Shown: positions 4,690 to 61,630 of the stretch, one piece after another
Position numbering within the stretch: position 1 is the first letter of the stretch
How the letters are laid out: each line of letters begins with the position of its first letter
IMG/VR virus record: IMGVR_UViG_3300022696_000117
Span: 1 to 64,000 of that record
From: a virus
Reading direction: 5' to 3' (one strand)
DNA length: 64,000 nt
The notes under the pieces: model-generated
What the model was told of the DNA's origin: nothing
Seen by the model: only the letters and a program-made list of their open reading frames with translations
The model's database searches: none
Translations under genes and position numbers: made by a program

Positions 4690-5230
4690 CTTCTTCCTCC
4701 TCCTCCACGATCACGCCGATATCCACCAGGTAGGCGCGCTCCTCTTTCCACCAATCGTCAATATATTCGGCGGACCCCCTTACTGCCTTGTTCAGAGGCC
4801 GAAGGGCGCCGAGGAAGCGTTCGGCTTCTTTCAGGCCGTCGGAAGCATCGGTAGCATCATCGTCATCCTCTATGGAGTATGCGATAGCCTCCACGTTGAC
4901 GACCTTATCAACGTCGATGGTCGTTGAGTATCCCCGGCCTCGGACTCCATGGTATGAATATCCATCCGGGTAAAACGTGGCGCCCCTACTTCCATCCTGG
5001 TAGATATTCCAGTCGTATCCGTACTCATCCTTGATCCAGTCCTGGATATATTCGATCTCCTGCTCGATGTAATGGTATAAGCTGTTGTAGAAATGCTCCC
5101 ACTCGTCGTCATCCACTTCCGGCCAGAAAGCAGAGTACGATCCATTGTGATATACGTTTCTCCACTCCTCCTCAATCTCCGGGACCAACTCTTCCAGGAT
5201 TTTAAGGCAGGCGATTTGTCTTGCGTTCAT
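4649..5230 (-). CDS. Very acidic hypothetical protein
   Basis: The 193-residue protein begins MNARQIACLKILEEL and is strongly acidic throughout (runs DDDE, EDDDD, EEEEED), with many Tyr and Trp. Such charge could indicate DNA mimicry, as in several phage anti-restriction proteins, but I see no family match and treat this only as an idea. CCAAGGAGG precedes the start. Confidence 0.65.
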   Translation of the reverse strand: MNARQIACLKILEELVPEIEEEWRNVYHNGSYSAFWPEVDDDEWEHFYNSLYHYIEQEIEYIQDWIKDEYGYDWNIYQDGSRGATFYPDGYSYHGVRGRGYSTTIDVDKVVNVEAIAYSIEDDDDATDASDGLKEAERFLGALRPLNKAVRGSAEYIDDWWKEERAYLVDIGVIVEEEEEDGDTEAELIQECG

Positions 5231-5245
5231 GGTTCCTCCTTGGCT

Positions 5246-5530
5246 TCAGCAGAAGATGTATTCAATGGCGCTGTGGACTATATAAACACACGGCTGGCCC
5301 TTGAACTTGGACTTGTGGAAGCTCACCGCATAATCGTCTTTGATGTGGAAGTCGCAGGCTCCGGGCTTGTCCCTTTCGCCACGGTACGAATAGTCCGGGA
5401 ATATCTCTTCCACGTGTGGAGGCTTGACGTATTTTTTGAATGTCTTCCAGGTTATCTCCCGGCTGTTGTCGATCATTTCGTGAAGCGCCTCAACATCCTT
5501 GCATGAGACACAGTTGATTAAATATTTCAT
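5246..5530 (-). CDS. Small hypothetical protein
   Basis: The 94-residue protein begins MKYLINCVSCKDVEAL and has four cysteines (C7, C10, one central, one at the last residue). The early Cys-x2-Cys could bind metal but lacks a clear partner pair. CCAAGGAGG precedes the start, the same leader string used by the next gene downstream. Function unknown. Confidence 0.6.
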   Translation of the reverse strand: MKYLINCVSCKDVEALHEMIDNSREITWKTFKKYVKPPHVEEIFPDYSYRGERDKPGACDFHIKDDYAVSFHKSKFKGQPCVYIVHSAIEYIFC

Positions 5531-5718
5531 GGTTCCTCCTTGGCATTTTTCGGTTATAAATCATCACCACACTATGCTTTTAGCCTTTTCGGAGACGTCC
5601 GGCGGTAGCCGGGCGCCTCGGGAAGGGCTAAATCATGAAGCCCAGTCTTTTCTACTTTTTCGACTTTGGGGATATCTTCTGTCTTAAACGTCATTGTGAG
5701 ATGGCATCTGTCGCCCAT
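5491..5718 (-). CDS. Possible small protein (75 aa), overlapping the next gene
   Basis: From an ATG at 5718 with GGAGG at the right distance, a frame runs 75 codons (MGDRCHLTMTFKTEDIPKVE...) and ends 40 bp inside the next gene. The start region sits directly downstream of the GTTACA repeat cluster, where a transcript should begin. The ribosome site is good but the C-terminal part looks random, so the gene may be real, frameshifted or spurious. Confidence 0.3.
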
Positions 5719-5728
5719 ATTACCTCCA

Positions 5729-5829
5729 GGTTACATCAGGTTACATTTTTACACTGAAAAATGTAACCTATGTTAAGTTAATAACCTCGGGCACTTACGG
5801 CCCGAGGTTACAAAGTTACAAAAGTTACA
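5729..5829. repeat. Cluster of GGTTACA / TGTAACC motifs
   Basis: Copies occur at 5729-5735, 5739-5745, 5762-5768 (inverted), 5806-5812, 5815-5820 and 5824-5829. The same heptamer makes up the much larger array at 17754-18192. Both arrays sit directly upstream of minus-strand operons, so a shared protein probably binds them. Confidence 0.7.
5783..5809 (-). terminator. Stem-loop inside the GTTACA cluster, possible terminator
   Basis: AACCTCGGGC (5783-5792) pairs perfectly with GCCCGAGGTT (5800-5809) around a 7-nt loop. On the minus strand it follows the gene at 5847-6170 and is followed by TTATTAACTT, a weak U tract. It could end that operon or be a dyad bound by protein. Confidence 0.5.
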
Positions 5830-5846
5830 AAAATTTTCGTAGATTT

Positions 5847-6170
5847 TTAGTGGAGCAAATCTCCGGCCCCGATCCGAACGAATTTCTCTTTAAGCTCGGG
5901 GTTGAGGCCCGGGTCGATGCCCTTTATGATGAGGTCGGTTTTCATGTCTTTCAGGTAATCGACGAACTCCTCTGCCGATTCGAACTCGGTCAGATTGACG
6001 TCACCCTCTGCGAACTCCACCACCTGAAGGGCTTCCGGGTTGCACCAGCTCCCATAATACCAGGCGTCCTGCCGGGTATCCACCTGCGCCCACCCTTTCT
6101 TGGTTGAGCAGAGGTTGAAGTCGAACTGGTAGCGGTCGCAGTCCGGGATGAACCAGTGTTGGGTTTTCAT
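5847..6170 (-). CDS. Hypothetical protein
   Basis: The 107-residue protein begins MKTQHWFIPDCDRYQF. It is Trp- and Asp-rich with an N-terminal beta-like half and an acidic helical C-terminus (SAEEFVDYLKDMKTD). GGAGGTGG precedes the ATG, which overlaps the upstream stop. Last gene of the operon led by the clamp. Function unknown. Confidence 0.6.
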   Translation of the reverse strand: MKTQHWFIPDCDRYQFDFNLCSTKKGWAQVDTRQDAWYYGSWCNPEALQVVEFAEGDVNLTEFESAEEFVDYLKDMKTDLIIKGIDPGLNPELKEKFVRIGAGDLLH

Positions 6171-6436
6171 GGCGTTTCCACCTCCCTACCAGGGTAATAG
6201 GCTATGGCTTCACCCTTTTCATCGAAATATTTGATGCTCCAGGTCGGGTGACAGTTGTGCTTACCCTTGCCCATCTTCAGGGTGTTGGTGAACTTCACGT
6301 CCAGATTGCAGGATGAATTCATACCGACGATGGTGCCGGGCTCACCGTCCACCTCCACCATCATCCCGAGCCTGGGAAAGGAGAGCCCCCGGCATCGCTG
6401 GATGTCTTCGATAAACTGCTTTTCTTTTTTGGTCAT
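6167..6436 (-). CDS. Small hypothetical protein, SH3-like
   Basis: The 89-residue protein begins MTKKEKQFIEDIQ. The stretch GMMVEVDGEPGTIVGMNSS...LDVKF looks like the start of a small beta-barrel (SH3 or KOW-like) domain seen in many short phage proteins. Lies between the clamp gene and the operon end. The call rests on pattern only. Confidence 0.55.
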   Translation of the reverse strand: MTKKEKQFIEDIQRCRGLSFPRLGMMVEVDGEPGTIVGMNSSCNLDVKFTNTLKMGKGKHNCHPTWSIKYFDEKGEAIAYYPGREVETP

Positions 6437-6446
6437 GGCGTCTACC

Positions 6447-7598
6447 CTAAACCCGCATCGGCATAACGATCCCCTTGAAGGTCTCGTCGCCGCCGTTTAC
6501 GTGAATGGCATCATCGCTACCCCGACCGAATCCGAGGCAGGTCTTGCCGTTTTTCACGCCGGTCTTGATGGCGTGGATGAGCAGCTCTGCGTCTACGCCG
6601 ATCTCGAACGGTTCGTTCGGGATGCGGCCGTCACATTTGACGTCAGGCTTTTCGAACTCGCCGACGTCGGGGTTTGAGGAACGGAAGTTGATATTCTCCT
6701 CATTGATCGTCATGATCACACCTCGGTATGCTTTGGATCGGACCACAAGAGCCTGTTCCAGGGCCCTTTTCAGGTCGGCGGTGTTTACCTCGACGAAGTC
6801 GGTCCGGCTGAGGTCGTCGACCAGTGAATGGTATGTCGGGAAGTCCGAATCGAACGGCCTGGTGTAGACCGTGATCGGATCGGTGCCGTATTTGGCTCTC
6901 GGCTTGATGCTGAATCGGGACCAGCGCTCATAGGAATGGTCCAGAACCACCGACTCGGCCAGGAGCGCCACCTTTTTCAGGGTGGCCTTTTCGATTAGGA
7001 GCTGATCGTCGGTCAGGATTTCCAGAGGGACCGAATACAGGCAACTCCCGTCGGTGGACACCATTTGATTGTTGGGACCATCGAAATAGCAGGCGTTCGT
7101 GTGGGCCCGGGTGTCTTTCTCTTCTTGATAAAGCCCGGGCGGCATCCACATTTTCAGAACATCCGGCTTGTCGAGGTCCAACATTGTGAAGGTCTGGCCG
7201 ATCTCGGGCACATCCGGGAAGTCTTCGGGCGGCTGGACATGCAGGCCCCTATAGGGGCCGATCGCAAGCGAGACTTCGCGGTACGAGATCGATGTGTCTC
7301 CGATCTCGTCGGGCTTGACGTAGTGAGTCTCGAAATCCAGGCCGAGTTCAATTTCCGGATCTCCGGACTTCTTCAGGATGTCCAGCAGCATCTTCGGGTT
7401 GATGCAGCACCCGTCGTCTGAACCTGTGGCGTCCTTAATTTCTATCGGGACCAAACAGAAATTGGTCATGTCGGACCCGATCACCGCCTCGTGCTTCGCG
7501 GAGATACAGACGCTGTTGGTTACTGCCAGAGAGGTGCTTCCGGCAAACTTCTTGGCGATCTCGACAGCGTTGACGAGATCATTGCGATTGATTCGCAT
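6447..7598 (-). CDS. dnaN: DNA polymerase sliding clamp, beta-subunit (DnaN) homologue
   Basis: The 383-residue length and three-domain layout fit the bacterial beta clamp, a ring that tethers DNA polymerase to DNA. The N-terminus has the family pattern (ND-L-NAVEIAKKFAG), and the C-terminus ends GIVMPMRV, close to the conserved VVMPMRL tail that lines the protein-binding pocket. AAAAGGAG precedes the start. No DNA polymerase or clamp loader is in the window, so the clamp either serves a polymerase encoded elsewhere in the phage or recruits the host enzyme. The gene follows a terminator and a 200-nt structured leader, so it probably has its own promoter. Confidence 0.75.
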   Translation of the reverse strand: MRINRNDLVNAVEIAKKFAGSTSLAVTNSVCISAKHEAVIGSDMTNFCLVPIEIKDATGSDDGCCINPKMLLDILKKSGDPEIELGLDFETHYVKPDEIGDTSISYREVSLAIGPYRGLHVQPPEDFPDVPEIGQTFTMLDLDKPDVLKMWMPPGLYQEEKDTRAHTNACYFDGPNNQMVSTDGSCLYSVPLEILTDDQLLIEKATLKKVALLAESVVLDHSYERWSRFSIKPRAKYGTDPITVYTRPFDSDFPTYHSLVDDLSRTDFVEVNTADLKRALEQALVVRSKAYRGVIMTINEENINFRSSNPDVGEFEKPDVKCDGRIPNEPFEIGVDAELLIHAIKTGVKNGKTCLGFGRGSDDAIHVNGGDETFKGIVMPMRV

Positions 7599-29124: not shown

Positions 29125-29142
29125 AAAAACAAGGGGGTGTGG

Positions 29143-29442
29143 ATGCGGTACAAGGATTTAGTGGGAGAGGTTTGGGAAAAAAGCTCGGACCTCAGAAGCA
29201 GAAACGCAGCGCAGCGAACCGTAGACCTGGTGATCTCCGTCTTTAAGGAGGCCCTTCTCGCCGGAGACGACGTGAAGCTGCCCAAATTCGGCAGGCTTCA
29301 GCCGAGAACGGCCAAGAAGAGGACAGTGATGTCTCCACTCATTCCTGGAGGCGGATCGGTAGAGGTCCCAGAGCGGAAACTGGTGAAATTCGACGCATAC
29401 AAAGGCCTCAAAGAGGGGCTCAACAGCGGGGGTGGAGAATGA
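29143..29442 (+). CDS. HU/IHF-like DNA-binding protein
   Basis: Start at 29143 behind AGGGGG. The 99-residue protein has two N-terminal helices (LVGEVWEKSSDLRSRNAAQRTV, VISVFKEALLAG) then DDVKLPKFGRLQPRTAKKRTV, a beta-arm region with PLIPGGGSVEVPERKLVKF and a final helix, the HU/IHF plan. The arm lacks the usual NP tip (PGG instead), so bending may differ. Probably organises DNA for replication or recombination by the next genes. Confidence 0.7.
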   Translation: MRYKDLVGEVWEKSSDLRSRNAAQRTVDLVISVFKEALLAGDDVKLPKFGRLQPRTAKKRTVMSPLIPGGGSVEVPERKLVKFDAYKGLKEGLNSGGGE

Positions 29443-30695
29443 CTGAAATAAGGGATCGGGCGCTGGCCGTAATCGACCAGGCGCCGGAAGAAGTTAAAGG
29501 GTATCTTCTTGCGCTGGAGAAGAAGGACGTGGTGGCCCTCGGGATAGATGAGGCGTTCGTTCTGAGGGATTCCGAGGGCCAGATCAAGGCGTTCAAGCAG
29601 ACGGTGCATTTGTCGCTTCAGAATGGGGGCCTGATTCAACCTGTTTACAACGGCCCTTCCGTCGTGTCGGCCCAGGGCTACGAAATAATTAACGAGGCCA
29701 CAGGGGCCAGCGTAATCTTCCCGAAGACTGTGCTGGTCGACGGAGAGGAGAAGCCCAATCCGTTTGTGGTCCGGGAAAAAGGCCACATCACGCAGATAAT
29801 CTGTCGGGCGGTGGCCTTCAAATACAGCTCTAAGGGCATTCCCATGACCCGGGACTGGACCACCGTTTACGACGTCAGGAAGTATCGAGCCGCAGACCTG
29901 TTCGCCAAAGCCAAGAAATTTCCGCAGGCGTTTATGGCCCTGCCGGCGGACATGAAACCATCGGACCTGGATCTCGACATCAAGGGGCCGCAGGCATGGG
30001 CCAAGACAGAGATCAACGATGAGGTAAATCTCTGGTACAACACCCGCCATCCTGAGTGTCTCGATTGGCTGAAACATATCATCAACCGGGAGAAAAAGGT
30101 GCTCGACTACGCACAGACCTTCGCGGCAAGAAACGCCGCAAAGCATCTTCACGGAATCCAGAGGCCCCCGGGGCAGATCGGCCAGAATGGGAACACCGTC
30201 CCTGTTCCAGCGTGGACCTTCACGGTCCTCTGTTGGAGGCCGGTCGGGCAGAACATTATCAAGTGGGATACGGCACAGTACGAAGCCCTCCAGGGCCGGG
30301 TTGATCGAATGCTGAAGGGTGAAAACGAGTTCAAGGGCCAACATCTGGACTACAAGGCCGGCTCAGAAGAGATCGACCAGGAAGCCTATGCCGATCCCAC
30401 CGTGATGGAACCGGAAGACGGCCCGGCTCAGATCGAGGTCCAGGAATTCGAGGGCCCGGAAGGGGCTGATGAGCCCAACGAGGCCCCCGACGACTCAGAG
30501 TCGGTCTCCGGTCCGAAGTTGGATTACGTCACACAGGTTTCGTCCATTCGAGACGATCCCGAGCTAAATCGATTCTTTCTTGAAGCCTGCGATGCGCTCA
30601 AGATCGATCCGAAGGCAGAACTGTCCCAAGAGCAGGCAGAGGCGTTGTTTCAGGGCATCTCCAACTCGATAGACCAGGCCGACAAGGAGGGATAG
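29439..30695 (+). CDS. Probable recombination-associated protein
   Basis: The 418-residue protein begins MTEIRDRALAVIDQ. It sits between the HU-like and Rad50-like genes. A central region (GHITQIICRAVAFKYSSKGIPMTRDWTTVYDVRKYRAADLFAKA) and a long acidic tail (PDDSESVSG, EDGPAQIEVQEFEGPEG) recall single-strand annealing proteins, but I cannot place it in RecT, Erf or Sak. Homologues would show whether it is an annealing protein. No enzymatic motif is visible. Confidence 0.45.
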   Translation: MTEIRDRALAVIDQAPEEVKGYLLALEKKDVVALGIDEAFVLRDSEGQIKAFKQTVHLSLQNGGLIQPVYNGPSVVSAQGYEIINEATGASVIFPKTVLVDGEEKPNPFVVREKGHITQIICRAVAFKYSSKGIPMTRDWTTVYDVRKYRAADLFAKAKKFPQAFMALPADMKPSDLDLDIKGPQAWAKTEINDEVNLWYNTRHPECLDWLKHIINREKKVLDYAQTFAARNAAKHLHGIQRPPGQIGQNGNTVPVPAWTFTVLCWRPVGQNIIKWDTAQYEALQGRVDRMLKGENEFKGQHLDYKAGSEEIDQEAYADPTVMEPEDGPAQIEVQEFEGPEGADEPNEAPDDSESVSGPKLDYVTQVSSIRDDPELNRFFLEACDALKIDPKAELSQEQAEALFQGISNSIDQADKEG

Positions 30696-30696
30696 C

Positions 30697-31764
30697 ATGA
30701 TCACAAGGGTATGGGCGAGAAATTTCAAGGGAGCCTCATTCAAGCAGCCGCTATCCGAAAGAACGCTTTTCGTTGGTCCAAACGGCATCGGGAAAACGCT
30801 TCGAGCCCAGGCGCTGACCCTGGCGGTCAATGGATATATTCCCGGGACATCGAAGCTGAACCGGGATATCCACGCCGCCTACGCCACCGCCGCGAAGATG
30901 GCGGTCGGGTTCGAGCTCGGCGGGATCCAGTTCGAGAGGATTTTCCAGGCTGCCGGCGAGAAAGTGTCGTGCCTCTACAGGATCGATGGAGCAAAATATA
31001 GCGCCAAGGACTTCCAAGTGGAGATGGCCAAGGCAGGCGACCCGCAGATTTGCGACCTCACGGCTTTCCTTGGCCTGTCGGACCCGAAAAAGATCGAGGA
31101 GATATTTAAGTCCTATCCGCCGTCAGGGAATCTTAAGGGTATTGAGTCGGAGGTTCACCGAGCTAAAGAAAAAATCAATATCTACAATAGAGAAATCCAA
31201 TCCAACGAAAGAAGCATCGAGCGTCTGTCCAAATCCAGGGCCTCACTCGAACTTCCGGCCGGGACCCTCCCTGAGCTTCAGGCCCGGATTGGATCCCTCG
31301 AAAAGGATCTCGCTGAAGCGCAGGAAGAAGAACGCAGGCAAAGGGATGAGCTGCAGCGAGAAAGGGAGGCCGAGGAGCGCAGGGCCGTTGAAAAGAGGCA
31401 GGCTGAACTGAAAGCCAAACGCGATGCTGAAGAGGCTGAGGCCAGGCGGCGTGAGCAGGAGGATTTTGAGCGCAGAAAGGCGGCATGGGAGGCCAAACAG
31501 AAGCGCGAGGCCGAGGAGCTTGAGCGGAGAAAAGCCGAGGAGGCTTCCCGCAGAGAACAGATGAAGGAAGAGAGCCTTCATCCTCCTGGCTCGAAAGATC
31601 CTCCGGTCCCTGAGCCTCAACCTGCACCAGAACCGGTCCATATCGGTGCGATCGCGTCCATCAACCGGATTATTGCAAAAATGAACGAGGGGGGATGCCC
31701 GAATTGCTCCGCAAAGATGACTGCCATTATTGAGCGCAGGAAGCTTAAAGGAGGTGCTGCATGA
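30697..31764 (+). CDS. Rad50-like ATPase, N-terminal half ending at the zinc hook
   Basis: The 355-residue protein has Walker A GPNGIGKT at residues 27-34, a Rad50-type N-terminal fold, and from about residue 150 a long Glu- and Arg-rich coiled coil. It ends with GGCPNCSAK near residue 334, a zinc-hook CxxC. Where a full Rad50 would turn back down the coiled coil, the gene stops, and the next gene supplies the returning coil and C-terminal ATPase half. AAGGAGG precedes the start. Rad50 with a nuclease partner processes DNA ends; a separate Mre11 or SbcD gene was not seen. Confidence 0.75.
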   Translation: MITRVWARNFKGASFKQPLSERTLFVGPNGIGKTLRAQALTLAVNGYIPGTSKLNRDIHAAYATAAKMAVGFELGGIQFERIFQAAGEKVSCLYRIDGAKYSAKDFQVEMAKAGDPQICDLTAFLGLSDPKKIEEIFKSYPPSGNLKGIESEVHRAKEKINIYNREIQSNERSIERLSKSRASLELPAGTLPELQARIGSLEKDLAEAQEEERRQRDELQREREAEERRAVEKRQAELKAKRDAEEAEARRREQEDFERRKAAWEAKQKREAEELERRKAEEASRREQMKEESLHPPGSKDPPVPEPQPAPEPVHIGAIASINRIIAKMNEGGCPNCSAKMTAIIERRKLKGGAA

Positions 31765-32414
31765 CTGAACTTGACATGATGACCACGCAGGTAGGGGCCC
31801 TCAAACAGGCGATTCACGACGAGCGGGCCAAGCGGGATCTCTTCGTGAAGGCGTCCACCCTCGATGAGGAGATCCAGAAGATCTCATCCGACACCGAGGA
31901 GCTTCGTGAGCAGCTCAAGGACGCGAAAGCCAAACACGCCGACGCCATACGCCGAAGAGACGAAGCGGTCAGAACCTCCCTCGGGGCCATGGAGCGAAGA
32001 ATCCAGAAGATGCTGCCTTTCGGTGAAGCGGCGCTCAATCTCACCGAAGATGGGCGGCTGGTAATCGGCTGGATCATCGGAGAAAAAAGCATCCCCTATT
32101 GGGCACTTTCCGGGGGGCAGAAGATGATTTTCGATCCGGCTCTCGCCTTCGCCATGCTCGGGAAAGCGCAGTCCAAGATCGTGATCATGGAAGGCGCCGA
32201 GATGGACACCCGCCATCTCACGGAAACCATACAGCAGATCGCCGAAAGCCGGCCGGAGGCGCAAATCATCTGCGCCACCTGGCACGAACCTGACGGAGAG
32301 GTTGATGGATGGGAAACCGTGAAGCTGGAGGGGTCCGATGCCGAAAGCGGGGCACAGGAGGAAGGCGAAGAAGAAGTGGATGACTCACAAGAAGGCGAAG
32401 ACGAAGGCGCATAA
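31761..32414 (+). CDS. Rad50-like ATPase, C-terminal half
   Basis: The 217-residue protein starts with a coiled coil (residues about 10-80), then has the ABC-signature LSGGQ at residues 116-120 and a Walker-B-like segment SKIVIMEGAEMD at residues 138-149. The usual LLLDEP pattern reads VIMEG, so the metal-binding Asp seems replaced by Met, with the following Glu kept. It ends in an acidic tail. It overlaps the N-terminal half by four bases (ATGA), so both are probably made in equal amounts. Confidence 0.75.
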   Translation: MTELDMMTTQVGALKQAIHDERAKRDLFVKASTLDEEIQKISSDTEELREQLKDAKAKHADAIRRRDEAVRTSLGAMERRIQKMLPFGEAALNLTEDGRLVIGWIIGEKSIPYWALSGGQKMIFDPALAFAMLGKAQSKIVIMEGAEMDTRHLTETIQQIAESRPEAQIICATWHEPDGEVDGWETVKLEGSDAESGAQEEGEEEVDDSQEGEDEGA

Positions 32415-32619
32415 GCTCTTCGACCAGTTGTGGCAGGGGGGAATGATGAGCCGGTCGGATGCTTATCGATGGTTGTCCGACCGGCTCAATATCCCGCTTC
32501 ATCGGTGTCACTTTCGATATTTCGGCACAGGAATGTGTAAGCGGGTGATCAGGGTCATGAACCAGGTTAAACCAAGGGAAATCAAAAATGAATATCACAG
32601 ACAAACCACAACTCAATGA
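32338..32619 (+). CDS. Small zinc-finger-like phage protein (DUF3268-like)
   Basis: The ATG at 32338 follows GGAGGGG. The 93-residue protein has a basic start (MPKAGHRRKAKKKWMTHKKAK) and a segment MSRSDAYRWLSDRLNIPLHRCHFRYFGTGMCKRVI that fits the short zinc-binding domain of DUF3268 (R-AYxWL, CH, C-R). It overlaps the end of the ATPase gene by 77 bp in another frame and the helicase start by 32 bp. Confidence 0.6.
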   Translation: MPKAGHRRKAKKKWMTHKKAKTKAHKLFDQLWQGGMMSRSDAYRWLSDRLNIPLHRCHFRYFGTGMCKRVIRVMNQVKPREIKNEYHRQTTTQ

Positions 32620-34363
32620 GCACCAGCAGGCTGCGGTTGAGGCATCGGAGCCCAGGGTCCTTGTCCGGGCCGGCGCAGGCTCCGGAAAGACTCGAGTTCT
32701 CACCGAGCGGATCGCATACCTGATCGAGGACCGTCAGGCAAGTCCGCACGAAATCATGGCCTTCACCTTCACCCGGAAAGCCGCCCAGGAAATGAAAGAA
32801 CGGCTCCTTGTGCGGGTCGGAAGCGCCGCCCACAAGATCGACATCGGTACATTCCATGCCGTGGGCCTCGATTTCATCCAACGCCATGCCGAAATGATCG
32901 GATTCAGGCAGGCGGTGACCGTATACGGTGAATGGGAAACCAACCACCTGATCGAAAGGGCCGCTGAGGCCCTGGGGTATAGGACAGGGAAGAAATGGAA
33001 GACACCGAAGAAGCTCATCGTGGATACGTTCAAGAGTTGCGATGAACGAGGCGAGGAGCCGGAACGGCTTCATCCGCTTCGGCCGCTTTTCGATTCCTTC
33101 ATGACGACATGCAGGTCGAACAACGCAATGCACTTCGGAGCCATTCTGGTGCATTTCAGGGACCTGATTCAGTGTATCAAGAATCTCTATCCCATCCAGT
33201 ATGTGTTGACCGACGAGGCTCAGGACAATGATGAGTTACAGTGGGAGATTTTGGAGCTTCTCCAGGAGCAATTCGGGGCGGAATTGTTTTGCGTTGGTGA
33301 TCCTGACCAGTCCATTTACGAATTCCGTGGCGCCGTTCCGCAATATCTGATCGAGCACCAGGACGATTTCGCCGTTTATGATCTTCCGGAGAACTATCGG
33401 TCTTTCAGGCCGATTGTGGAGGCGGCGAACAGCCTCATTGGGCACAATAGCGACCGTATCGGAAGCCCAATGTCCTGCGCCAGGGCCGGCGGTGATTCGA
33501 GCGCAAGCTTTGTGCTGGAGAATTTCGACAGCGCCGTTGTGGTGGAATATTTGAAGGCCCGGAAGCTGGAGCCATCCAGAACCGCAATCCTCGCCAGAAA
33601 TCATTTTCTTCTGATGAAACTCGCCAATATCATGGACGAGCAGGGGATCCACTACCATTATATCGGCAAAAAAAGCTCGATCACCAGGACCGAGGAGTTC
33701 CAACGATTTCACGCCTACATGAAGCTGTTGGTCAATCCGTATGACGACTTCTCATTCATGCTGGCATCCGAAGCCCTTGGTGTTTCTGTCGAACAGCTGA
33801 GGGCCCTGCGGCTGGAATCTACCCAAACAGGCGATGGGGCGTTCAGCATCTGGAGCCGGCAGGAGTTCAGCAGCCCCCCGAAATGGGTGGAGTTCTTTAA
33901 TACCGCCCACAAGGACAGCTGGAGCGTTTACCGAATTGCCGGCTTCATCCAGGACAACGGCGGCTTTGAAGACGATAAAGTCTGGCGGTTCGTCATGGAA
34001 TGGTTCGAGGCGAACCCGACCGAGAGCCTGGAGGAGTACCTTTATTGGGTTTCCACCTACGACATCCATGACGAGCTTGCAGACGACAGCAGCCAGGATT
34101 GCTATCAGCTGGCCACCATCCACGGCGCCAAGGGCCTCGAATGGCCCAACGTGATCATCGCCGGGGTGAACGAGGGCCTTTTGCCGTCGTCTCAGGCGAT
34201 TCGGTGCGGCGATATCGAGGGTGAGCGGCGGCTGATGTATGTGGCCATGACCCGGGCCGAAGAAAAGTTGATCCTTACGATCCGTCCGGAGGAGACCGTG
34301 AACGCCCGCGGGCAGGTGAACGTGAATCCTGTGAGCCGGTTTGTGGAGGAGGCGGGGTTATGA
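32588..34363 (+). CDS. UvrD/Rep-like superfamily 1 helicase
   Basis: The 591-residue protein shows SF1A motifs: Q-motif LNEHQQAAVEA, Walker A VRAGAGSGKTRVL, motif Ia AFTFTRKAAQEM, motif II YVLTDEAQDND, motif III VGDPDQSIYEFRGA, motif IV-V TIHGAKGLEWPNVI, motif VI ERRLMYVAMTRAEEKL. It unwinds DNA 3' to 5' in repair and recombination. Slightly short compared with host UvrD (about 720), so an accessory domain may be reduced. Confidence 0.9.
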   Translation: MNITDKPQLNEHQQAAVEASEPRVLVRAGAGSGKTRVLTERIAYLIEDRQASPHEIMAFTFTRKAAQEMKERLLVRVGSAAHKIDIGTFHAVGLDFIQRHAEMIGFRQAVTVYGEWETNHLIERAAEALGYRTGKKWKTPKKLIVDTFKSCDERGEEPERLHPLRPLFDSFMTTCRSNNAMHFGAILVHFRDLIQCIKNLYPIQYVLTDEAQDNDELQWEILELLQEQFGAELFCVGDPDQSIYEFRGAVPQYLIEHQDDFAVYDLPENYRSFRPIVEAANSLIGHNSDRIGSPMSCARAGGDSSASFVLENFDSAVVVEYLKARKLEPSRTAILARNHFLLMKLANIMDEQGIHYHYIGKKSSITRTEEFQRFHAYMKLLVNPYDDFSFMLASEALGVSVEQLRALRLESTQTGDGAFSIWSRQEFSSPPKWVEFFNTAHKDSWSVYRIAGFIQDNGGFEDDKVWRFVMEWFEANPTESLEEYLYWVSTYDIHDELADDSSQDCYQLATIHGAKGLEWPNVIIAGVNEGLLPSSQAIRCGDIEGERRLMYVAMTRAEEKLILTIRPEETVNARGQVNVNPVSRFVEEAGL

Positions 34364-34658: not shown

Positions 34659-36056
34659 ATGAAACTCACCATCTCCAACTACCTCCAGCTCTACGGCCAC
34701 CCGATGGAGTTGGAGAAGCACCTCACCAGGCTCCTCACCATCCAGAACCCGAGGTGGCTTGACAACGAGAAGATGAACCGGTGGCAGGGCAATACCGCTC
34801 GATTCCTGACCTATTTCCACACCGACGGCCTCGGGACGATGTCCGTACCCCGGGGCCTGGCCGTGCATGTCTGGAGGTGGTGCAAGGATCATGGGGCAGA
34901 GGTTGAGGTTGAGGATAAACGGGCGTCTTTTCCTGGTCTCAACATCAACTTCATGGGCCGCGGCCTTCGGCAATATCAGGTAGAAGCCGCGGAGGCCGTC
35001 CTGAAAAGAGACGCGGGGGTCCTCTGCGCTCCGACCGGGTCCGGAAAGACCGTCATGGCGCTTTATCTGATTGCAAAAAGGGACCAACCGACGGTCATAG
35101 TGGTCCACACGAAGGACCTGGCCAACCAATGGATAGACCGCATAGGCCAGTTCCTCGGAATAGACGCCGGAGATATCGGACTGATCGGGGCTGGCAAGAA
35201 GACCGTCAATCCGAATGGCCTAAATGTGGCCCTGGTTCAAACCCTGTACGGCTGCGCCGATGAAATCGCATCCCATATCGGCCATCTCGTGGTTGACGAA
35301 TGCCACCGGGCCCCGAGCCGGACTTTCAACGAGGCCGTAACCGCGTTCTCATCCAAGTACATTCTCGGCCTCACAGCCACCCCGTTCCGCCGGGACAAAA
35401 TGACCAACCTGATTTATTGGTTTCTCGGTGATCAGGTCCATAAAATAGAGCCGGACGGCCTTCGAGAAGACGGGCACATTCTCACCGCGGATGTGGTGGT
35501 CCGCAAAACCGACTTCAAGGCGTATTCCGACCCTAAGAACGAATACGCCAAGATGCTCTCGGAGCTGTCTTCTGATCTCCACAGGAACCGCATGATCGTT
35601 CAAGACGTGGCCGACATCGTAAACTCCGAAGAAGAGGGCGTGTGCCTGGTCCTGTCAGACAGGAAAGAGCACTGCGAGATCCTGAAGTCGGCGATTACCA
35701 CCGAAAAGAAGATCCCGGCGGTCGTTCTTACCGGAGACACGCCGAATAAGCAGCGAGAAATGATCATCGACATGGTCAACCGCGGGGCGGTGCCGGTTGT
35801 GGTGGCCACCGGGCAGCTCATCGGCGAAGGGTTCGACTGCAAGAACCTGACGAACCTTTTTTTGGCCATGCCGATCAAGTTCTCAGGGCGCCTGATCCAG
35901 TATCTCGGCCGGGTGCTTCGGCCTGCGCCGGGCAAGGAGCGGGCGCTTATCTATGACTACGAGGATGCCAAGGTGGGTGTTCTCCGCAATTCCGCCTCCG
36001 GGCGGAGGAGGGTGTATAGGCAAAATGGATTTTCGATCACAAGAGAGGGAGCTTGA
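34659..36056 (+). CDS. SF2 DEAD/DEAH-type helicase (UvsW/XPB-like)
   Basis: The 465-residue protein has GLRQYQVEAAEAVL (Q region), Walker A APTGSGKTVMAL, motif II VVDECHRAPS, motif III GLTATPFRRD, then IGEGFDCKNL and QYLGRVLRPAPGKERA (motifs V and VI). An N-terminal region of about 90 residues may bind DNA. UvsW-type helicases remodel branched DNA and R-loops during phage replication. Complete. Confidence 0.9.
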   Translation: MKLTISNYLQLYGHPMELEKHLTRLLTIQNPRWLDNEKMNRWQGNTARFLTYFHTDGLGTMSVPRGLAVHVWRWCKDHGAEVEVEDKRASFPGLNINFMGRGLRQYQVEAAEAVLKRDAGVLCAPTGSGKTVMALYLIAKRDQPTVIVVHTKDLANQWIDRIGQFLGIDAGDIGLIGAGKKTVNPNGLNVALVQTLYGCADEIASHIGHLVVDECHRAPSRTFNEAVTAFSSKYILGLTATPFRRDKMTNLIYWFLGDQVHKIEPDGLREDGHILTADVVVRKTDFKAYSDPKNEYAKMLSELSSDLHRNRMIVQDVADIVNSEEEGVCLVLSDRKEHCEILKSAITTEKKIPAVVLTGDTPNKQREMIIDMVNRGAVPVVVATGQLIGEGFDCKNLTNLFLAMPIKFSGRLIQYLGRVLRPAPGKERALIYDYEDAKVGVLRNSASGRRRVYRQNGFSITREGA

Positions 36057-42535: not shown

Positions 42536-43585
42536 TTATTCTTCCGGTTCTTCCGTCTGGATGTCTATTAGGTCGACCGAGCCCAGTATCGGCGCCATGA
42601 GTTGGGCCTGCCTTGGAGCGTTTGGGTCAGGTGGGTAGGCTCGGTACGGCGTTGCGAGAGCAATCAGGTCTACGAGCATCTGTGACATGTCTGGGGAGTA
42701 GTCCACTTTATATGGCGGTTCGTCGTTGTCGTCGTCAGGGTCCATATTAACCGCCTGCGGTTCTCCGAAGATGCGGCTCCCTGCGATAATATTGCTGGTT
42801 CCGCCTATAGCAGGGTTGGTCATTGACCCGTCCATTTGCTGAACCGCATATACTCCAGACATGGGAGAATACCCCCATGAGAAAGCAAGATATGCGTAGT
42901 CCATAGGGGCGGGGTTCATTGGAACATAGTCAGCTTGAGACTTGCCTTCTATGTTGGTTGTCGAACGGTATGTGCCTGGGTGGTCTGGAAAATCTGTGTG
43001 CCCGAGAAGTATGCGCAGGCCCCTGTCGTAGGCGTTGTTTTGCGGAAATCGCGGATCGTATGAATATTGAATGTTGTTATACTCAAAACGGAACAGCGTG
43101 TCCCCTGACATTGTGAATTCGTATGTGAATATTCTTTCCGGGAAAGTTTTTGTTCTCCATTTTGTTATCGGCACGTCGTCCTTCAGGTTCCACATTTGGG
43201 CGTAGGCGGTTTCGACCCAATTCCCTCCTGGGTCTGTGTATATCGCCAAGGCTCCAAAGATGGCGACCCTAATTCGGCACGGCTTTACGTCTTTCACGAA
43301 ACCGACCACCTCAAAAGTTTTTACGCCAACTGACGCCCTGTGTCTGTACGCCAGGACCAAGACCCTGTCTCCGGCGTTGAAGGCAGACCAGCCGTTATCA
43401 ACCACCTGCTGGCCCTCGCAGTGGTAGAATATGGGAACGTCAGCCTCTTCTCCATGATCATCTATATTTACGACTGCGGTTTTCGTGTCGCCATCGACTG
43501 AAACGATTGTGCCCTGTTTCATTGCGGCGTCGAAAACGTCGGTTACATTGTTTCCGAAGTCGATATATTCGTGCTGTTCAGCCAT
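42536..43585 (-). CDS. Tail tip protein
   Basis: Start at 43585 (MAEQHEYIDFGNN), overlapping the previous stop; the longer frame starts upstream in that gene. The 349-residue protein contains a barrel-like stretch QGTIVSVDGDTKTAVVNIDDHGEEADVPIFYHCEG and FNAGDRVLVLAYR. That recalls the OB-fold tip proteins (gpV-like) that carry cargo at the tail end. Family not certain. Confidence 0.6.
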   Translation of the reverse strand: MAEQHEYIDFGNNVTDVFDAAMKQGTIVSVDGDTKTAVVNIDDHGEEADVPIFYHCEGQQVVDNGWSAFNAGDRVLVLAYRHRASVGVKTFEVVGFVKDVKPCRIRVAIFGALAIYTDPGGNWVETAYAQMWNLKDDVPITKWRTKTFPERIFTYEFTMSGDTLFRFEYNNIQYSYDPRFPQNNAYDRGLRILLGHTDFPDHPGTYRSTTNIEGKSQADYVPMNPAPMDYAYLAFSWGYSPMSGVYAVQQMDGSMTNPAIGGTSNIIAGSRIFGEPQAVNMDPDDDNDEPPYKVDYSPDMSQMLVDLIALATPYRAYPPDPNAPRQAQLMAPILGSVDLIDIQTEEPEE

Positions 43586-44904
43586 CAAGCGCCTTCCCAA
43601 CCGATTTTCATCGGGATGATTACATAATTCGATTTTGCCGGGTCCAGGGCAGAGCCTTCAGGAGCGTCCGCGGTAAAGCCGAAGGTGTTGGCCCAATGGA
43701 CCGTTCCGTCTTTGGCTCGAATGACCGAAAAGCCGGTCTCCTTAAACTCAGGCCGGATCATATTTGCAAAATGCCTTGGAGACGCAAGCCACCCACCGAA
43801 AACACTTTCAGCGTCGTTGAAACCCTTGGCCAGATTTTCGCCAGTCCCCATTTCCTGTGCGTTCATTCCGTATCCTGTCGCTGTTATCCGCTCCTGCGAG
43901 CTTGATCCGTCAGAGCCTGTGTGCCCTATAAAGCTATTGGATACCATATCCTTGCAGTGGTTCTGAGCGGCAGACGCAAGGTTGGTATTGATGCTTAGTC
44001 TTCCCACGCCATGTTCTTCACGCAGGGCGTTGATCAAATTCAGCAGAATCCTCGTTTGACTCCTAAGCGCCGAGTCGTCTTCACCTGAATATTCAACCTG
44101 CCCGAGGTCGCAATTCAGATCGCATGAATCTTGAGCGCTCATGAGAAAAACCCAATCTCCGACCTCGTAGTCAACATGGTCCGATGCCCTGCATGCGTAG
44201 AGGACGCCTTCTACCTCGACGATATAGTAGATGGTCGTTGAGTCGTAATCCCCCCTGACCTCTTTGACAACTCCACCCGTGATTGAGCACGTCCGATAGT
44301 ATTTTTTCCCGCAGACGACCTCTTTTTCCCTTTTACCATCGGTAAAAAAAAGGTGGGCCCTGGCTTCCATTCCCGGGACCATTATGCCGTTGTCCAGAAC
44401 GTCGTATTCCTGTGGCGGTATTTTATAGGATTTGCAGTCCGTCCTCTCGTTTTTGTCTACCTCTGTCCTCGGCACTCCGTTTCGGCTGCCCGACTTGTAG
44501 GTTTCCGCAAACAGCTCTCCACTGGTGTCATCAAGCCCCTTGTGCCCTGTCACAACCGTTCTGAACCATTGGCAATGATACGGCCGGTAGACATCGATAT
44601 GGGGGTACGGCTCCAGCGACGTGACGGCCCCGCTTATCGGGTGGAATGTCTCAGGGTCTCTGGCGATGCTGATGCACTCTTCCAGGACGTCGCAATTGAA
44701 AGGCTCGTAATCGGCCGAGTTCGGTAGCCTGACGATCACCCTGTTCCTTTCGATTTCCATTTCCGGATCTCGAATCGCCAAGGTGATCAGTTTTTTTTCT
44801 TCGCTGACGCTTGCACCCTTTCCGCAATTCTGACCGGATGGTTCTGCATAGCAGGAGCCCGGGACAGTTCCGCACAGGGGGATGTATATCTTCCTGCTTC
44901 CCAT
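43585..44904 (-). CDS. Tail protein with C-terminal CAP (SCP) domain
   Basis: The 439-residue protein begins MGSRKIYIPLCGTVPG. The N-terminal 280 residues, with many cysteines, look structural. Residues about 285-425 are a CAP/SCP domain: LLNLINALREEHGVGRLSINTNLASAAQNHCKDMVSN, FIGHTGSDG, ERITATGYG, GENLAKGF and VHWANTFGF. CAP domains are common in secreted bacterial and eukaryotic proteins and bind lipids or cell walls; in a phage tail the domain could bind the host surface. The upstream gene's stop overlaps its start (TAATG). Confidence 0.75.
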   Translation of the reverse strand: MGSRKIYIPLCGTVPGSCYAEPSGQNCGKGASVSEEKKLITLAIRDPEMEIERNRVIVRLPNSADYEPFNCDVLEECISIARDPETFHPISGAVTSLEPYPHIDVYRPYHCQWFRTVVTGHKGLDDTSGELFAETYKSGSRNGVPRTEVDKNERTDCKSYKIPPQEYDVLDNGIMVPGMEARAHLFFTDGKREKEVVCGKKYYRTCSITGGVVKEVRGDYDSTTIYYIVEVEGVLYACRASDHVDYEVGDWVFLMSAQDSCDLNCDLGQVEYSGEDDSALRSQTRILLNLINALREEHGVGRLSINTNLASAAQNHCKDMVSNSFIGHTGSDGSSSQERITATGYGMNAQEMGTGENLAKGFNDAESVFGGWLASPRHFANMIRPEFKETGFSVIRAKDGTVHWANTFGFTADAPEGSALDPAKSNYVIIPMKIGWEGA

Positions 44905-50612: not shown

Positions 50613-51017
50613 TTAAAGTTCCATGATTTTAATCGTCAAACTGTGGAATCTGTCATTTTCCTCGAAAACGGGCTTGTTCATGTGGATCGGGACGGCTGAA
50701 ATCACCGGTGGGTCTTCATGCGGAAACCTGAACTTGATTTTTGCTCCATGGTGGTTCCAAACGTACTGTGCGTCAGGCACCTGGGTAAGGGCGTGAAGAT
50801 CGGCCAGGTCTTTGAAAAGGATGGTGGCTGTTGTTTGAGTCCCGGCGAACACCCTTATCGGATTGTAATCCGGGCCCTCGAATAGAATTATGTTTCTGGC
50901 CAGCGCCCGCTCGACCACCGAGAATACCCCGGTGAATGCCAGCGGCTCCTGCTCTACAAGCTCGCTCGGCAATAGCACCAGACGCTCGGTCTCGTTAATA
51001 TCCCATAGCGAAATCAT
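50613..51017 (-). CDS. Small tail protein following the tape measure
   Basis: The 134-residue protein begins MISLWDINETERLVLL with GGAG before the start, and overlaps the tape-measure end by 23 bp. Beta-rich; it ends KIKFRFPHEDPPVISAV...IKIMEL. A gene of this size right after the tape measure is often a distal tail or adaptor component. Confidence 0.6.
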   Translation of the reverse strand: MISLWDINETERLVLLPSELVEQEPLAFTGVFSVVERALARNIILFEGPDYNPIRVFAGTQTTATILFKDLADLHALTQVPDAQYVWNHHGAKIKFRFPHEDPPVISAVPIHMNKPVFEENDRFHSLTIKIMEL

Positions 51018-54000
51018 TCGGTCTCCGTCGTTTTTCCATTCTGATTTGCTCCTTGAACTGTTCTATCTGGTCTACTCTGTCGTAAACCTGAACTGTGGTA
51101 TTGCCAAGAGTTAAATCCATTTTCCCCATATTTGTTGCTTCCTGAGCCGGACGAACGGCCCCACCGGTTGCGAAATGCTGAACGACCTGCTGTGTGAACT
51201 GAGGAACCATCTTCGGGACCGATATCTTGGGCATGACAGGTTTCACCGGCCCACCGAGGCTGAACTTCTGCACGAAAGAGCTCATGATGTCCTTTGCGTC
51301 GGACTTGGATCTGGATCGGAGCCAATTGAAGAAGCCGTGGCCGCCGAAGTTCTGCACGGTCGGCACGTCGATGACATGCTCGTTCGGTGTCAGCATGGCC
51401 GGTACGGTGTCTCCGGTTCCGGACCCGGGCACCCGGCCGCCGGTTGCGTATTTCAGGGGGGTGTCGCCCATCTTGCTGGTGATGTCCTTGGCCATCTTGG
51501 CAAGTTTTTTGAGCTTGCCTTCTGCTTCGGTGGTGTCCAGCTCGAATTTGGTTCCGGACTCAAGCTTATCCATGAACTCACCGGCCTTCTCCCTCGCCCT
51601 GTCGAGACCGGCATTGACTTCTTGTTCCAGCCGCTTCCCGATCGCTTCCAGCCGACCGTCGGTTACGGCCAGGGTCTTCTGGAGGGTGGCTGTGTGTTCC
51701 TCGGTTTTGGCCTGTGCTCTCTCCAGAACCTTAATCCGGCCTTCCTCTTCGGATTTAAGCGTGGAGAACATTTTCTTGACCGCTTCGGTGGATCTGGACC
51801 TTGCCCTCTCTGCGGAGATGATGACCTTTTCTTCGTCCTTGATCTCTCCCGTCATACCCTTGGCGGCGTTCATCGCCTCCTTGATGAGCTTGATCTTTTC
51901 TTCGTACCGATCGTTGCCCATCGCAACCGCTTTGTTGTATTTCTCGTTGATCTCAGCCCACTTGTCCTCGTAGGCTGCCTGTTCCGACATCCCTTCGCGT
52001 TTTTGGTCGCGGAGCCATTCTTCAACCGATTTCTGTTCTTCGGCCAGGCCCCTGCGAATATCGAGGATCTCGTTTGCGACATCCTTTTCCATCTGAAGGG
52101 ACGCTTCAAGCTCAGACTTCAGGGCCTGCCTGGCTTCTTCGTAATGCTTCTTCTTGGCTCTAAGCACCTGCTCGTCGATGTCCTTGACTTCCTCGGCGTA
52201 TTGTTTTTCAGCCTTGGTCATCTCCTTGGCCACATCGACGACGATCTTCTTTTTCTTTTCGGCGCCCTGGACCCGGTTCTGGGCGTCTGACTCGTAGAGG
52301 CGCTTCTTGGCCTCGTTGGCCTCCTTTTCGAGCGTCTCCATATCGATGTAGAATCTTTTGGTGCCTGCCAGAACATCCTGGTTGTGCTTGTCGATCAGGC
52401 CCTCGTTCATCGACCAGAATTTGTGGCGCTCGATGGCGTATTCGAGATCCAGGCGTTCCTGGTCGGTGATGGCCTCGGCTGTCGCCGCGGTCTCCTTGTT
52501 CAGGGCATCTTTTTTGATCCCGAGCGACCTGGCCGCGGCGTCCTTTTCCTTGGCCGCATAGTCGTCCAAGGCCGTGGCAGCAAGCCCGAGGGATTCTCTG
52601 ATGGCGCTGACCCGCTCCTGGGCCATTTTCAGGTTTATGGCTCTGATCTTGTCTTCAATGGTCTGCACCTGGCTGACATCAGGAACGATGCCGTAATATT
52701 GCGCCAGGGCCGCATTCTGTTTTTTGGCGGCGTCTATTTCTTCGCCTGACAACTTGGAATAATCACCAATGGATTCTTTGAGAGAGGCCAGGAACAGCTC
52801 CTTACCCCTGGCGTATTTTTCTTCGGTGCTGAGGGTGCCGAGATAAACCCTGACTTTTTCTGCATGGGCCTCCTTTGCGATCCGGATCTCTTCTTCCGAC
52901 ATCTCCGAGAGAACCCCGATAGATTCGTTCAGGGCCTTGTAGAGCGGGCTGTTTTTCGGAGAGAAGCCTGAGATCTCTTTCTTGAGGAAGGTGCTTTCAG
53001 CCTCGACCTTGAGCCGTTCAAGTTCGGTGATTTCATTCTGGTAGGCTTCGATCTTCTTGGAGGATTCCTCCTGGATTCGCTTGGTCTTGGCCGCGATGTC
53101 GTCCAGGACATTCTGGATGGATGCCTGGCGGGTAACCTTCATTTCGTCTTCGGCGATCTTTTTAAAAGCCTCAAACCTTTCACGCCAAATCGACTGAACC
53201 GTAGCAGAAATCTCTTCTTCGGTGTGTTTCATCGACTTGGCCTTGTTCTGATAGGCAATCGCTTCAGACTTGGTGTCAGCGAAGAACTTTTCGAAAGAGA
53301 TTTTCCTTCTTGAATCCAGTTTTCCGTAAAACTCCTCGAATTCGTTGTACGTGCTTTTTAGAACCCTATGGTCTCTGCTTCCGGTTTTGCTCCAGTCGAA
53401 CAGTTTTTCGAAGAGAGATTTTTTAGGCATTGCGTCGTTTACTTTTTGGGTGCCCTCCTTCACGATGCCCAAAAACTCCAGGATGGTCTGCCAGAAAGAC
53501 TTCTTCGCAGGCTCTCCGTCTTCACCAACGAAAGAGGTGACTATCCGTGGCCTCAAAGCGTTCGCTTCTCTTTCGAATTCTCTGGTGAGGCCGGTCATTT
53601 CTTCGGTTTTTTCTGACAGATCAGTTTCGCTCGACCCCCTGCCTCTGAACCAGACAACGGCTTTTGCAACCAGGCCTTTGCTGATCGTCTCCATCGCCCG
53701 CTTCATTCTGACTGCAACACTGTCGACCACGTTGTCATCGAGCATCGCTTCAAGCGGGTTGATGTCCTTGATGGTCCGCTCCACCTCTTCAAGGGAGGTT
53801 TCAGTCTCGGATTTTATTCTGTTGAAGAACCCGGATACCAACCCAAGTCCTGGAATCTGGTCTGTTATCCAGGCCATGGCCTCCGCAAAGGACTTCTTTA
53901 CGTCAAGCAGAAAGGCATGGATGTAGCCATATGCTTTCATGGTGTAGTCGTTCACCTTCATCGGCAAAGTGCCGAATAGGTCCATGTCGCCTATGATTCT

Positions 54001-57000
54001 GCCGAGATCCCAACCGATGAAGAAAGCCTGAACCGCAGCCATCACCATATTAAACTTGGATGCCACGGTAGCCGCTGCGCCCGCTATCTTTGCCAGGCCG
54101 GTACTCAGACCTGGGACCTTCGCAACCATGGCAGTAAATGCCTTGGCGGCCGAGGACCCGTGCGTAGACAGTTTGGCGAATGCGGTTCTGCCTATTTCGG
54201 AGAGGCCGGTAATGGCTTTTCGTGCCAGGTCCGCAGAAGAAGCCATTACCTTGAACGGTCTTTGTGCGAATTTGAAATACTCTTGCAGCCCCTTTATTCC
54301 AAGCTTGATGCCGGCCACCACGCTTTTGTTCTTATCCATGAAGTCGACAAAAGCAGCGGAGATCCCGTTTTTAGCGTCAGAGGCAATCTTGGCTGGGGCT
54401 GTGAGCGCATCAGTCAGGGCCGTTTTCACCTTCTCAGCGGCGATTTCCGCCTTGTCGGATATGCTTGTCTTTAAATCGAATCCGAGCGTGAAGACTTTCC
54501 CGACATTGGCCATCATGCCGATAGATTTTTTGGTCCAGGCTTCAAAAATTGAACTCATGGCGCCGAGGGCATCGGCCCATTTCGGGGAGAAGTAACCAAC
54601 CGTGTTGTCTATTACGGCCCTGAACGAGTCACCTATGGTAGAAACAAAGCCAAGCGCAATGCCTTCCGCCTCGTCGAGCTTTTTGTTCAGGCCTACAAGG
54701 AAGTCCTCTCCGTCCTGGCCCACCAAAGAGATGATGTATCTTGCGCCCATGTGATAGGCGTCTTCTGCAAGCTGTCGAAGCTCTTTCCCGGTGTTCAGGA
54801 TTTTGTCGATCAGCGGCTCACCATTGTCTGCAATGAACCGCATCGTGAAATTGGTGTTCAGCTTCGATAGAGACGCCTTGAATTTTTCAGAGAAGAACAG
54901 GAACTCGTCCAGCCTGTCTTCAGGGGTCTTTTCGCCCTCATCAGTCACGAGGTTTACGACGAAATTCGGAGAGTGTTTCTTGACCGAATCTGAAAACTCT
55001 TCGAGCTTGGCTTCGGTGGCGTCTATAGCGTCGCCCACAGGCTTTCCTGCGCCGTCCGTGAAGAAGGTCTTGACCTTTTCTGCGTTCTTGTCTGCCTTCT
55101 TGAAGATGCCCCTTATAGAATGGACGACGTTTGAGGCGAAGGCAATTGGGTCGTCTCCGTCCTCCGTCTCTATACCGAGACGCATGATGGCGTTGATGTT
55201 GCCTACGCTCTTCGAAAAAGATGTCGCCTTCGAGATATTCTTCTTTACGCCATCCGTGAAGCTGTCGCCTTCGTCGGTCCCGAAGAAAATTGAAAGACCG
55301 GTCTTCAGACGGCCGGTCCAGGTGGAGAATTTGTTCAGGTTTTCCTTCAGCAGATCAACCTGCTCAGAAACAGGAACACCTTCCGTGGTCCCGTCGCTTC
55401 CGGTAAAGGCTATCCTGAATAGAGCCGCCCCGGCCTTGGCTCGGTCCAGAAGACTGCCCTCGCCTCTGAATTGGGCATAGAGATTACTCAGCTCATCTCC
55501 GCCCTCTACCGAGATTTCGACCTTTTTTTCACCGGATAGGGCATCGGCTTTTTTGCCGAGAGTATCGAGTTCTTTAGACGCTTCCGCGACAGCCGGTCCC
55601 AGGTTGAAAAAACCTGATATTGCCTTGACGGCTCCGCTTCCTCCAATCTTGGAAAAGAATCCGGACGCCGACTCCGCAGCGGATGACAATCCATCTCTCA
55701 GCTTTTCTGCGGTCTCGTATGCCCCTATGAGGGCCTTCGGCATATCTATGCCGAACTTTTCGCCTATCTTCTGTACGGTGATCAGCGCACCGCCGACCGA
55801 GTCGATCATATCGGCGGCTTGCTCTTCAACCGGCCGGCCGTCGTCTCCGAGGATTCCAAAGGTGAGCGTGGCCTTGAGGTCGTTCACCTTGGTCACCAAG
55901 GCTGTGGCGGCCATCAGCGCCTTCTTGGCCTCCTCCGGGATCGGCGCACCGGTCTTTGCAGCCACTACGCCGATCTTCAGCGCGGCCTTGGCTGCATTGA
56001 TGGTGTTCTGCGTCTTTTCGACGTCGCCCATGACCGCTCTGAGTTTGTCTTCTATGGGCATTTTTTGACCTTCGTCAGAAACGAAGACCTCGAAAGCGGT
56101 TTTCATGCCCGATATGGTGCCGGATGCCTCGGAAAATTTCCCCATCATTTTCTCGATGGCGTCATCAAGGGGTATCCCAGTAGCGTCCGAAAATTCGGCG
56201 ATGAAGGAAACAAGCAGGCCACCGATAAACTTGACGAGGGACATGAATTGGTCCTTGGCCCACGACAACCCCTCAGAAAGCGGCATGCCTCCGATCTTTA
56301 TGTCTGCGGTCATTTCGGCAGTGGTTTTGTTGATATAGTCTGACAGGGCCTTGAACTTACCCTTGACCCACTCTACTATCCCCCCGAATGAAATCCCTTC
56401 TTCCGTTTCGAACTTGGCTCTGAACTTTGTTATTGTTTCGTTTATTGAGTCGGAAAGGAGCTTCATCCTTTTTTTGATGTGCTCCATCTGCTCTTCAAGA
56501 GGTGCCCCGTCCTTGGTCCAGAATCTCACCGAGAAAACAGCGCCGAGAGTCCCGATTACCTGCTTCAAGCCCTCGAACCCCTTCAGGGTTTCTGATATCC
56601 TTTGCGTAATCGGCTTCCCGTTTTCTGAGGAAAACTTTATCTTGAACTCGGACGCCTTTCCTTTCACATACTTTGATGCCTCTAAGATATTCTCTTTCAC
56701 CCACTTCAAAGTAGACGAAAGCGGGTTTCCTTCTCCATCGGTGAACTTCGTAATAAAGCTGGTCACCACCCGCCCGACCCGGCGGGCCATCCCCATGATG
56801 CCGCCTTCCATATCCTTGATTTTTTCTGTGAGCGGCTTTACACTGTTGTTTTCGCCCATGAAGGAGACGGTGAAGGTGGAGACCAGGCCCTCAATCAGGC
56901 CTGCCAGGCCCTCTGCGGACTTGGCGACCTCTCCCATTTTTGCGGTGGTAGCCAGTCCGTCGGCTGACAAAAAGTCTGTGGTGAAGGTGCTCCCGAGATT

Positions 57001-61518: not shown

Positions 61519-61630
61519 CGCGTCGCATATCCGGGCCCTCCCTTTGGGGCGATCCCTTATGTGGATGGGGAGGGGGAAGCCGGCCAAGGGTAAACCGGCG
61601 TTCGGGAGCTACCCTATCCCCCAAGCTGGA

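Follow-up and report, generated by a model that had tools for sequence, protein, structure and literature searches.

The stretch analysed here (the window, 64,000 nucleotides) is the first 64 kb of a virus record of 82,155 bases, IMGVR_UViG_3300022696_000117. Its ORF list and profile searches define a recombination block of plus-strand genes at about 27 to 36 kb, within which the motifs of a Rad50-like ATPase are divided between two neighbouring genes, here called the first and second halves. The relevant features are as follows:

29137–29442, plus strand: HU-like gene of the recombination block
29439–30695, plus strand: upstream recombinase-like (SSAP-like) gene, 418 aa, phrog_32428 type (E 7.3e-15)
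30697–31764, plus strand: first half, 355 aa, an ORF with a predicted ABC/Rad50-type N-lobe, outgoing coil, linker and CxxC
30775–30798, plus strand: Walker A GPNGIGKT, residues 27–34 of the first half (from the sequence)
31696–31707, plus strand: hook-like motif CPNC, residues 334–337, 18 residues from the C-terminus of the first half (from the sequence)
31747–31756, plus strand: Shine–Dalgarno sequence AAAGGAGGTG of the second half, within the end of the first gene (from the sequence)
31761–31764, plus strand: ATGA start/stop overlap of the two halves (from the sequence)
31761–32414, plus strand: second half, 217 aa, an ORF with a predicted returning helix and C-lobe
32106–32123, plus strand: signature LSGGQK, residues 116–121 of the second half (LSG invariant in 10 of 10)
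32178–32207, plus strand: Walker-B/D-loop-like IVIMEGAEMD, residues 140–149 of the second half (10 of 10 second halves, and the unsplit relative L011)
32338–32619, plus strand: small zinc-finger gene (DUF3268; PF11672 3.1e-19), which overlaps both the second half and the helicase gene
32588–34363, plus strand: UvrD-type helicase, downstream of the halves (PF00580 1.1e-58)
about 34659–36056, plus strand: SF2 helicase of the recombination block

Away from this block, the minus strand of the window encodes a DNA polymerase III beta-clamp-like protein (6447–7598; PF02768 9.9e-11), a product of the structural region that carries a CAP (cysteine-rich secretory) domain (43585–44904; 2.6e-20), and a 3530-aa ORF with a PhageMin_Tail domain (50995–61587; 2e-37), a very long tape-measure-like protein.

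The preliminary description of this DNA had assigned Walker A and the outgoing coil to a first gene ending at CPNC, and the returning coil, LSGGQ and the Walker B region to a second gene overlapping it as ATGA. ORFs and motifs agree on each point: the first gene ends soon after CPNC, and in the second a helix predicted at residues 3–84 precedes LSGGQK and IVIMEGAEMD. The assignment of the first half draws on its match to phrog_32642, its AF2 model and Foldseek matches to SMC/Rad50 N-lobes. The phrog_32642 match (E 9.1e-17 across residues 2–86) is a match to an N-lobe profile and marks the resemblance as more than chance; with the position of the gene after a phrog_32428 gene, it places the first half in the phrog_32642 phage family. 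Profile searches, an avenue named at the outset for linking the pair to SbcC and Rad50, gave a divided answer: the window's first half matches phrog_77 (2.7e-5) with an aligned region of 146–290 only, and the curated rad50 model TIGR00606, whose cut-off is 453.75 bits, scored 15.8. The phrog_77 matches fall mostly in the coil. In the related locus L003, the first half matches phrog_77 SbcC at 4.2e-7 and T4-like gp46 regions at about 4e-4 (tblastn); Pfam AAA_23 exceeds its cut-off in that protein, and its matches in the window and L002 are sub-threshold. The second half is assigned from an SMC_N match (8.5e-6, below cut-off), its AF2 model, Foldseek and VIA matches, and an hhalign alignment to residues 500–676 of L011. 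PDB sequence searches gave weak matches only.

The AF2 models, one for each half, are of middling quality (pLDDT 70 and 77; pTM 0.39 and 0.47), with low confidence in the Walker A region of the first half. The first-half model resembles cohesin/Rad50 N-lobes (Foldseek: 7w1m_A, 9.9e-7, and 5dac_A, 6.0e-6; VIA: 6qpw_A, Z 11.3), and the second half is best matched by 1xex_B (Foldseek E 3.9e-5; VIA Z 8.8) and also matches Rad50 1f2u_D (E 2.0e-4; Z 8.2). As the models are of moderate confidence and the TM-scores low, these matches support the fold class of both halves and not its details. In the first-half model, a coil helix (190–291) leads into a low-confidence stretch (288–332) and hook helices (322–332 and 335–353). 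As modelled, the coil does not run unbroken up to the hook, since this long low-confidence stretch intervenes; in the alignment, the linker before the hook is the most variable part of the first half among relatives. The original proposal of a Rad50-like ATPase split at the zinc hook holds insofar as the division falls just after CxxC, and the picture of a hook crowning a coil is not what the model depicts. As for an SMC hinge, no hinge family is among the Pfam matches to E 0.1, and the model consists there of the low-confidence stretch and short helices. Most relatives do not have the long E/R/K-rich helix of the window's first half (31317–31560), and the acidic tail of its second half is likewise missing from most of them.

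Single-sequence searches with either half (viral contigs; tblastn in phages) found no relatives, nor did searches with the SF2 helicase neighbour or scans of genome contigs with the upstream gene. A match in Stenotrophomonas phage Summit (E ~5) spans two hypothetical genes and was judged to be chance. Relatives were obtained through the upstream gene (L002, L003), the first-half alignment (L008, L009, L010, L011) and the second-half alignment (L022, L024, L027, L028, L029). After exclusion of L009, a copy of L008 (the same over the 3,401 bases compared), and L022, which is cut by a contig end, both halves are visible in nine distinct split loci: the window, L002, L003, L008, L010, L024, L027, L028 and L029. 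At all nine, eight of them additional loci from IMG/VR, the halves are two separate genes in the same order; two conserved genes, the motifs divided between them and the gene order are all observed directly. The two-gene arrangement is therefore kept in several distantly related bacterial viruses, and the search for other split pairs that had been suggested for the window was productive. Trees of the first and second halves concur in uniting L003 with L010 (99/98; 100/98) and share a group of L002, L003, L008, L010 and L024 (96/94; 85/93).

The junction between the halves varies among these loci. The 4-nt ATGA overlap occurs in the window, L002 and L010; the overlap is 8 nt in L003 and 1 nt in L027, and L029, L024 and L028 have gaps of 2, 4 and 6 nt, respectively (21 nt in L028 with a later ATG). 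In L008 they lie 192 bases apart, and the interval holds a 67-codon ORF with a CSIC motif. This ORF (L008 7017–7217) sits exactly between the halves, overlaps each of them and has no Pfam match. Relative to the first gene, the second is offset by 2 in five loci, by 1 in two and by 0 in two. A strong Shine–Dalgarno sequence of the window's second ATG overlaps the final codons of the first gene, and similar sequences lie upstream of second halves in relatives too. These observations bear on the view that the pair is a single protein after all, its frames joined by a sequencing error or by programmed frameshifting or readthrough. An overlap of just 4 nt in the window would suit this view; nine distinct two-gene loci in which all three frame offsets occur, the additional ORF in L008 and a ribosome-binding sequence ahead of the second start make it very improbable. 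Since the offsets differ and an ORF intervenes in L008, there is no conserved frameshift or readthrough product, and such a fusion was rejected; the sequencing error that the preliminary description had named among its possible refutations is excluded by the eight other loci with their differing spacing and frames. An intein at the split was also considered and rejected, as no intein-like sequence was seen there by eye and no intein model was prominent in Pfam scans.

An unsplit homologue at the same position, which had been put forward as grounds for abandoning the split, does exist. L011 encodes a single 701-aa chain at the equivalent position, following a phrog_32428 gene (E 3.3e-56) and in a record with a UvrD helicase. 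Residues 3–157 align with first halves (hhalign probability 98.9) and residues 500–676 with second halves (96.7), and its motif IEAAELD is shared with the second halves, with the H-loop His replaced by Asn. Unlike the split pair, L011 has a longer coil and no CxxC, and it is a distant relative (20–28% identity in the first-half region); it does not undo the split. A tblastn search with L011 in phages gave no match. Rad50, SbcC and gp46 are single chains, which suggests that the split is most simply a derived state, with L011 as the one outgroup, on a long branch. We make no claim about the polarity or number of split events, given that the upstream-gene tree is unresolved and L011 forms a very long branch.

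The motifs of the ATPase head are conserved across the divided genes, with consistent substitutions at the catalytic positions. Walker A (GxNxxGK[ST]) is present in nine of nine first halves. LSG is invariant in all ten second halves, with G, C, M or A as the fourth residue, and the same ten proteins invariably carry E144, E147, D149 and the H-loop residues T173 and H175. E144 aligns with the Walker-B Asp position of solved ABC chains. That position is Glu, and the position of the catalytic Glu is A, G or C, in 11 of 11 proteins (ten second halves and L011), so the replacement of the Walker B Asp, first remarked upon in the window, is a family trait and no peculiarity of this virus. The canonical Walker B Asp and catalytic Glu of Rad50, SbcC and gp46 are thus not found here. 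A degenerate Walker B might indicate a decayed remnant on its way to loss, an idea to which we give very little credence, because E144, E147 and D149 are invariant over very divergent members and comparison of the L008 and L022 second halves gives a dN of 0.18 against a dS of 1.29 (dN/dS about 0.14), which indicates purifying selection on the second half.

A separate question is whether the halves still work together. Degenerate catalytic residues, separate genes and the additional ORF in L008 could be read as signs that they have parted functionally, the first serving as a zinc- or DNA-binding coil protein and the second as a regulator, with no ATPase head rebuilt. This is improbable. Every split member examined retains Walker A on its first protein and LSG, the D-loop Asp and the H-loop Thr-His on its second, a pattern expected only if both proteins meet in one site, and the genes are always adjacent and constant in order. 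The Rad50 D-loop Asp is described in PMC7049730 as touching Walker A of the other protomer, and its retention here speaks, by that comparison, for head dimerisation. Judging from these residues, ATP-driven closing looks to be kept and canonical hydrolysis looks to be altered.

The hook itself is less constant. CxxC occurs in eight of nine first halves; L027 has none though it is split, which indicates that the two-gene design does not require a hook. No second half in the alignment carries CxxC. The motif could therefore pair a first half with another first half only, and the earlier suggestion that the hook might rejoin the two halves falls away.

The neighbouring genes point to recombination. 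An upstream gene of the phrog_32428 type is found in eight of nine split loci; profile matches identify it in the window, L002, L003 and L008, and the upstream proteins of the seven split-locus relatives aligned are 40–46% identical to the window's. The window's own upstream gene (29439–30695) has no Pfam match, shows no detectable homology to RecT (hhalign E of 0.53 with the RecT part of L010), and has none to any solved structure in a PDB search. In L010, the slot (4750–5991) is occupied by a chimera of about 60 residues of the phrog_32428 type, a RecT core (phrog_148, 2.7e-55; PF03837, 2.3e-26, over cut-off) and a C-terminal tail common to L002 and L003, an arrangement suggesting that recombinase cores are swapped between conserved ends. 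From this replacement by RecT in one locus, we infer a recombinase role for the window's upstream gene. A UvrD helicase is present in ten of ten records. In L027 it is an 885-aa protein (4463–7120) containing an intein-like segment (PF14890, sub-threshold at 7.7e-4), and in L028 (5560–7489) it appears as two ORFs of 301 and 298 aa, reflecting a frameshift, an insertion or a second split gene.

An Mre11/SbcD-type phosphoesterase was sought with PF00149 (Metallophos), which was positive in 14 of 14 control genomes and in 0 of 12 of our records, these being linear and perhaps incomplete. Neither PF12850 (Metallophos_2) nor a PDDEXK_1 nuclease was found in ten records, likewise perhaps incomplete. 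The pair could still belong to a true Mre11–Rad50-type nuclease complex, as in SbcCD or gp46/47, with a split Rad50 and a nuclease encoded elsewhere, supplied by the host or lying in missing sequence. The matches of the L003 first half to T4-like gp46 and phrog_77 SbcC, and CxxC in nearly all first halves, would fit such a complex. We regard it as unlikely, as no calcineurin-type phosphoesterase is found in the 12 records, the catalytic Glu is missing throughout, and the phrog_77 matches lie mostly in the coil.

We consider it likely that each of the two genes supplies one lobe of a single Rad50/SbcC-like ABC ATPase, which is made as separate, co-translated subunits, is probably nuclease-free and serves phage recombination. 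In this two-subunit ATPase, (i) the lobes would pair into one ATPase head, with the first-half coil packing against the returning helix of the second half; (ii) two such heterodimers would hold ATP at their interface, bound by Walker A from one and LSGGQ from its partner; and (iii) a pair of first halves may share one zinc through their CxxC motifs, linking the arms. With the catalytic Glu absent and no Mre11/SbcD-type nuclease detected, a slow DNA clamp or tether driven mainly by ATP binding would be expected rather than a nuclease complex. Such a complex would hold or organise DNA ends or strands for the adjoining annealing-type recombinase and UvrD-like helicase. A more specific version, which we put forward tentatively, is that a pair of first halves, joined by a zinc hook, forms a frame that second halves leave and join, so that the ring could open at both head and arm without unhooking; it would run on ATP binding with an active site rebuilt around E144/E147 and, without Mre11, would load or hold DNA for the annealing recombinase.

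Like Rad50, SbcC and T4 gp46, the phage pair comprises an N-lobe with Walker A, a coil that bears CxxC towards its distal end, a returning coil, and a C-lobe with an LSGGQ-type signature, D-loop Asp and H-loop His. Unlike them, it is encoded by two genes, has short coils and a disordered linker before the hook, carries Glu for the Walker-B Asp and A, G or C for the catalytic Glu, has lost the hook in L027, and has no Mre11/SbcD partner among records that are perhaps incomplete. In outline the pair would work as they do, yet of their defining features the canonical Walker B and the single chain are absent, and the curated model stays below its cut-off; the pair is therefore not filed as Rad50 and is a variant within the Rad50-like ABC ATPases. 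A precedent for a two-polypeptide head is provided by the P. furiosus SMC and Rad50 heads 1xex (A/B) and 1f2u (C/D), in which N- and C-lobes are also separate chains. Those are laboratory constructs, whereas the phage division is encoded by the virus itself.

Unusual architecture of this gene system in viruses has a counterpart in the Mre11–Rad50 fusions described for Mimivirus and others in PMC3175470, where joining nuclease to ATPase is the opposite of the phage split. Stand-alone protein parts of other enzymes are described for jumbo phages, namely split Pol III alpha and split RNA polymerase subunits (PMC7824862); where that article treats SbcC, it is described as an ortholog with an SbcD partner, and a split is unmentioned there. 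A literature search over titles and the starts of abstracts, with few subscription journals, turned up no natural split of Rad50, SbcC or SMC. Phage enzyme splitting is already known (PMC7824862); within that coverage, a Rad50-like instance with its break at the hook seems new. Two short phage families in PHROG, 28890 and 3518 (144 and 203 positions), match the C-lobe around LSGG/Walker B and may be additional separate C-lobes.

A Rad50 or SMC chain folds back on itself, such that one chain provides both head lobes and both strands of the arm. A stable, natural two-chain version would allow the need for a covalent turn at the hook to be tested in signalling between hook and head. The phage pair also offers a small, apparently nuclease-free model for the role of Rad50-like ATPases in strand-annealing recombination.
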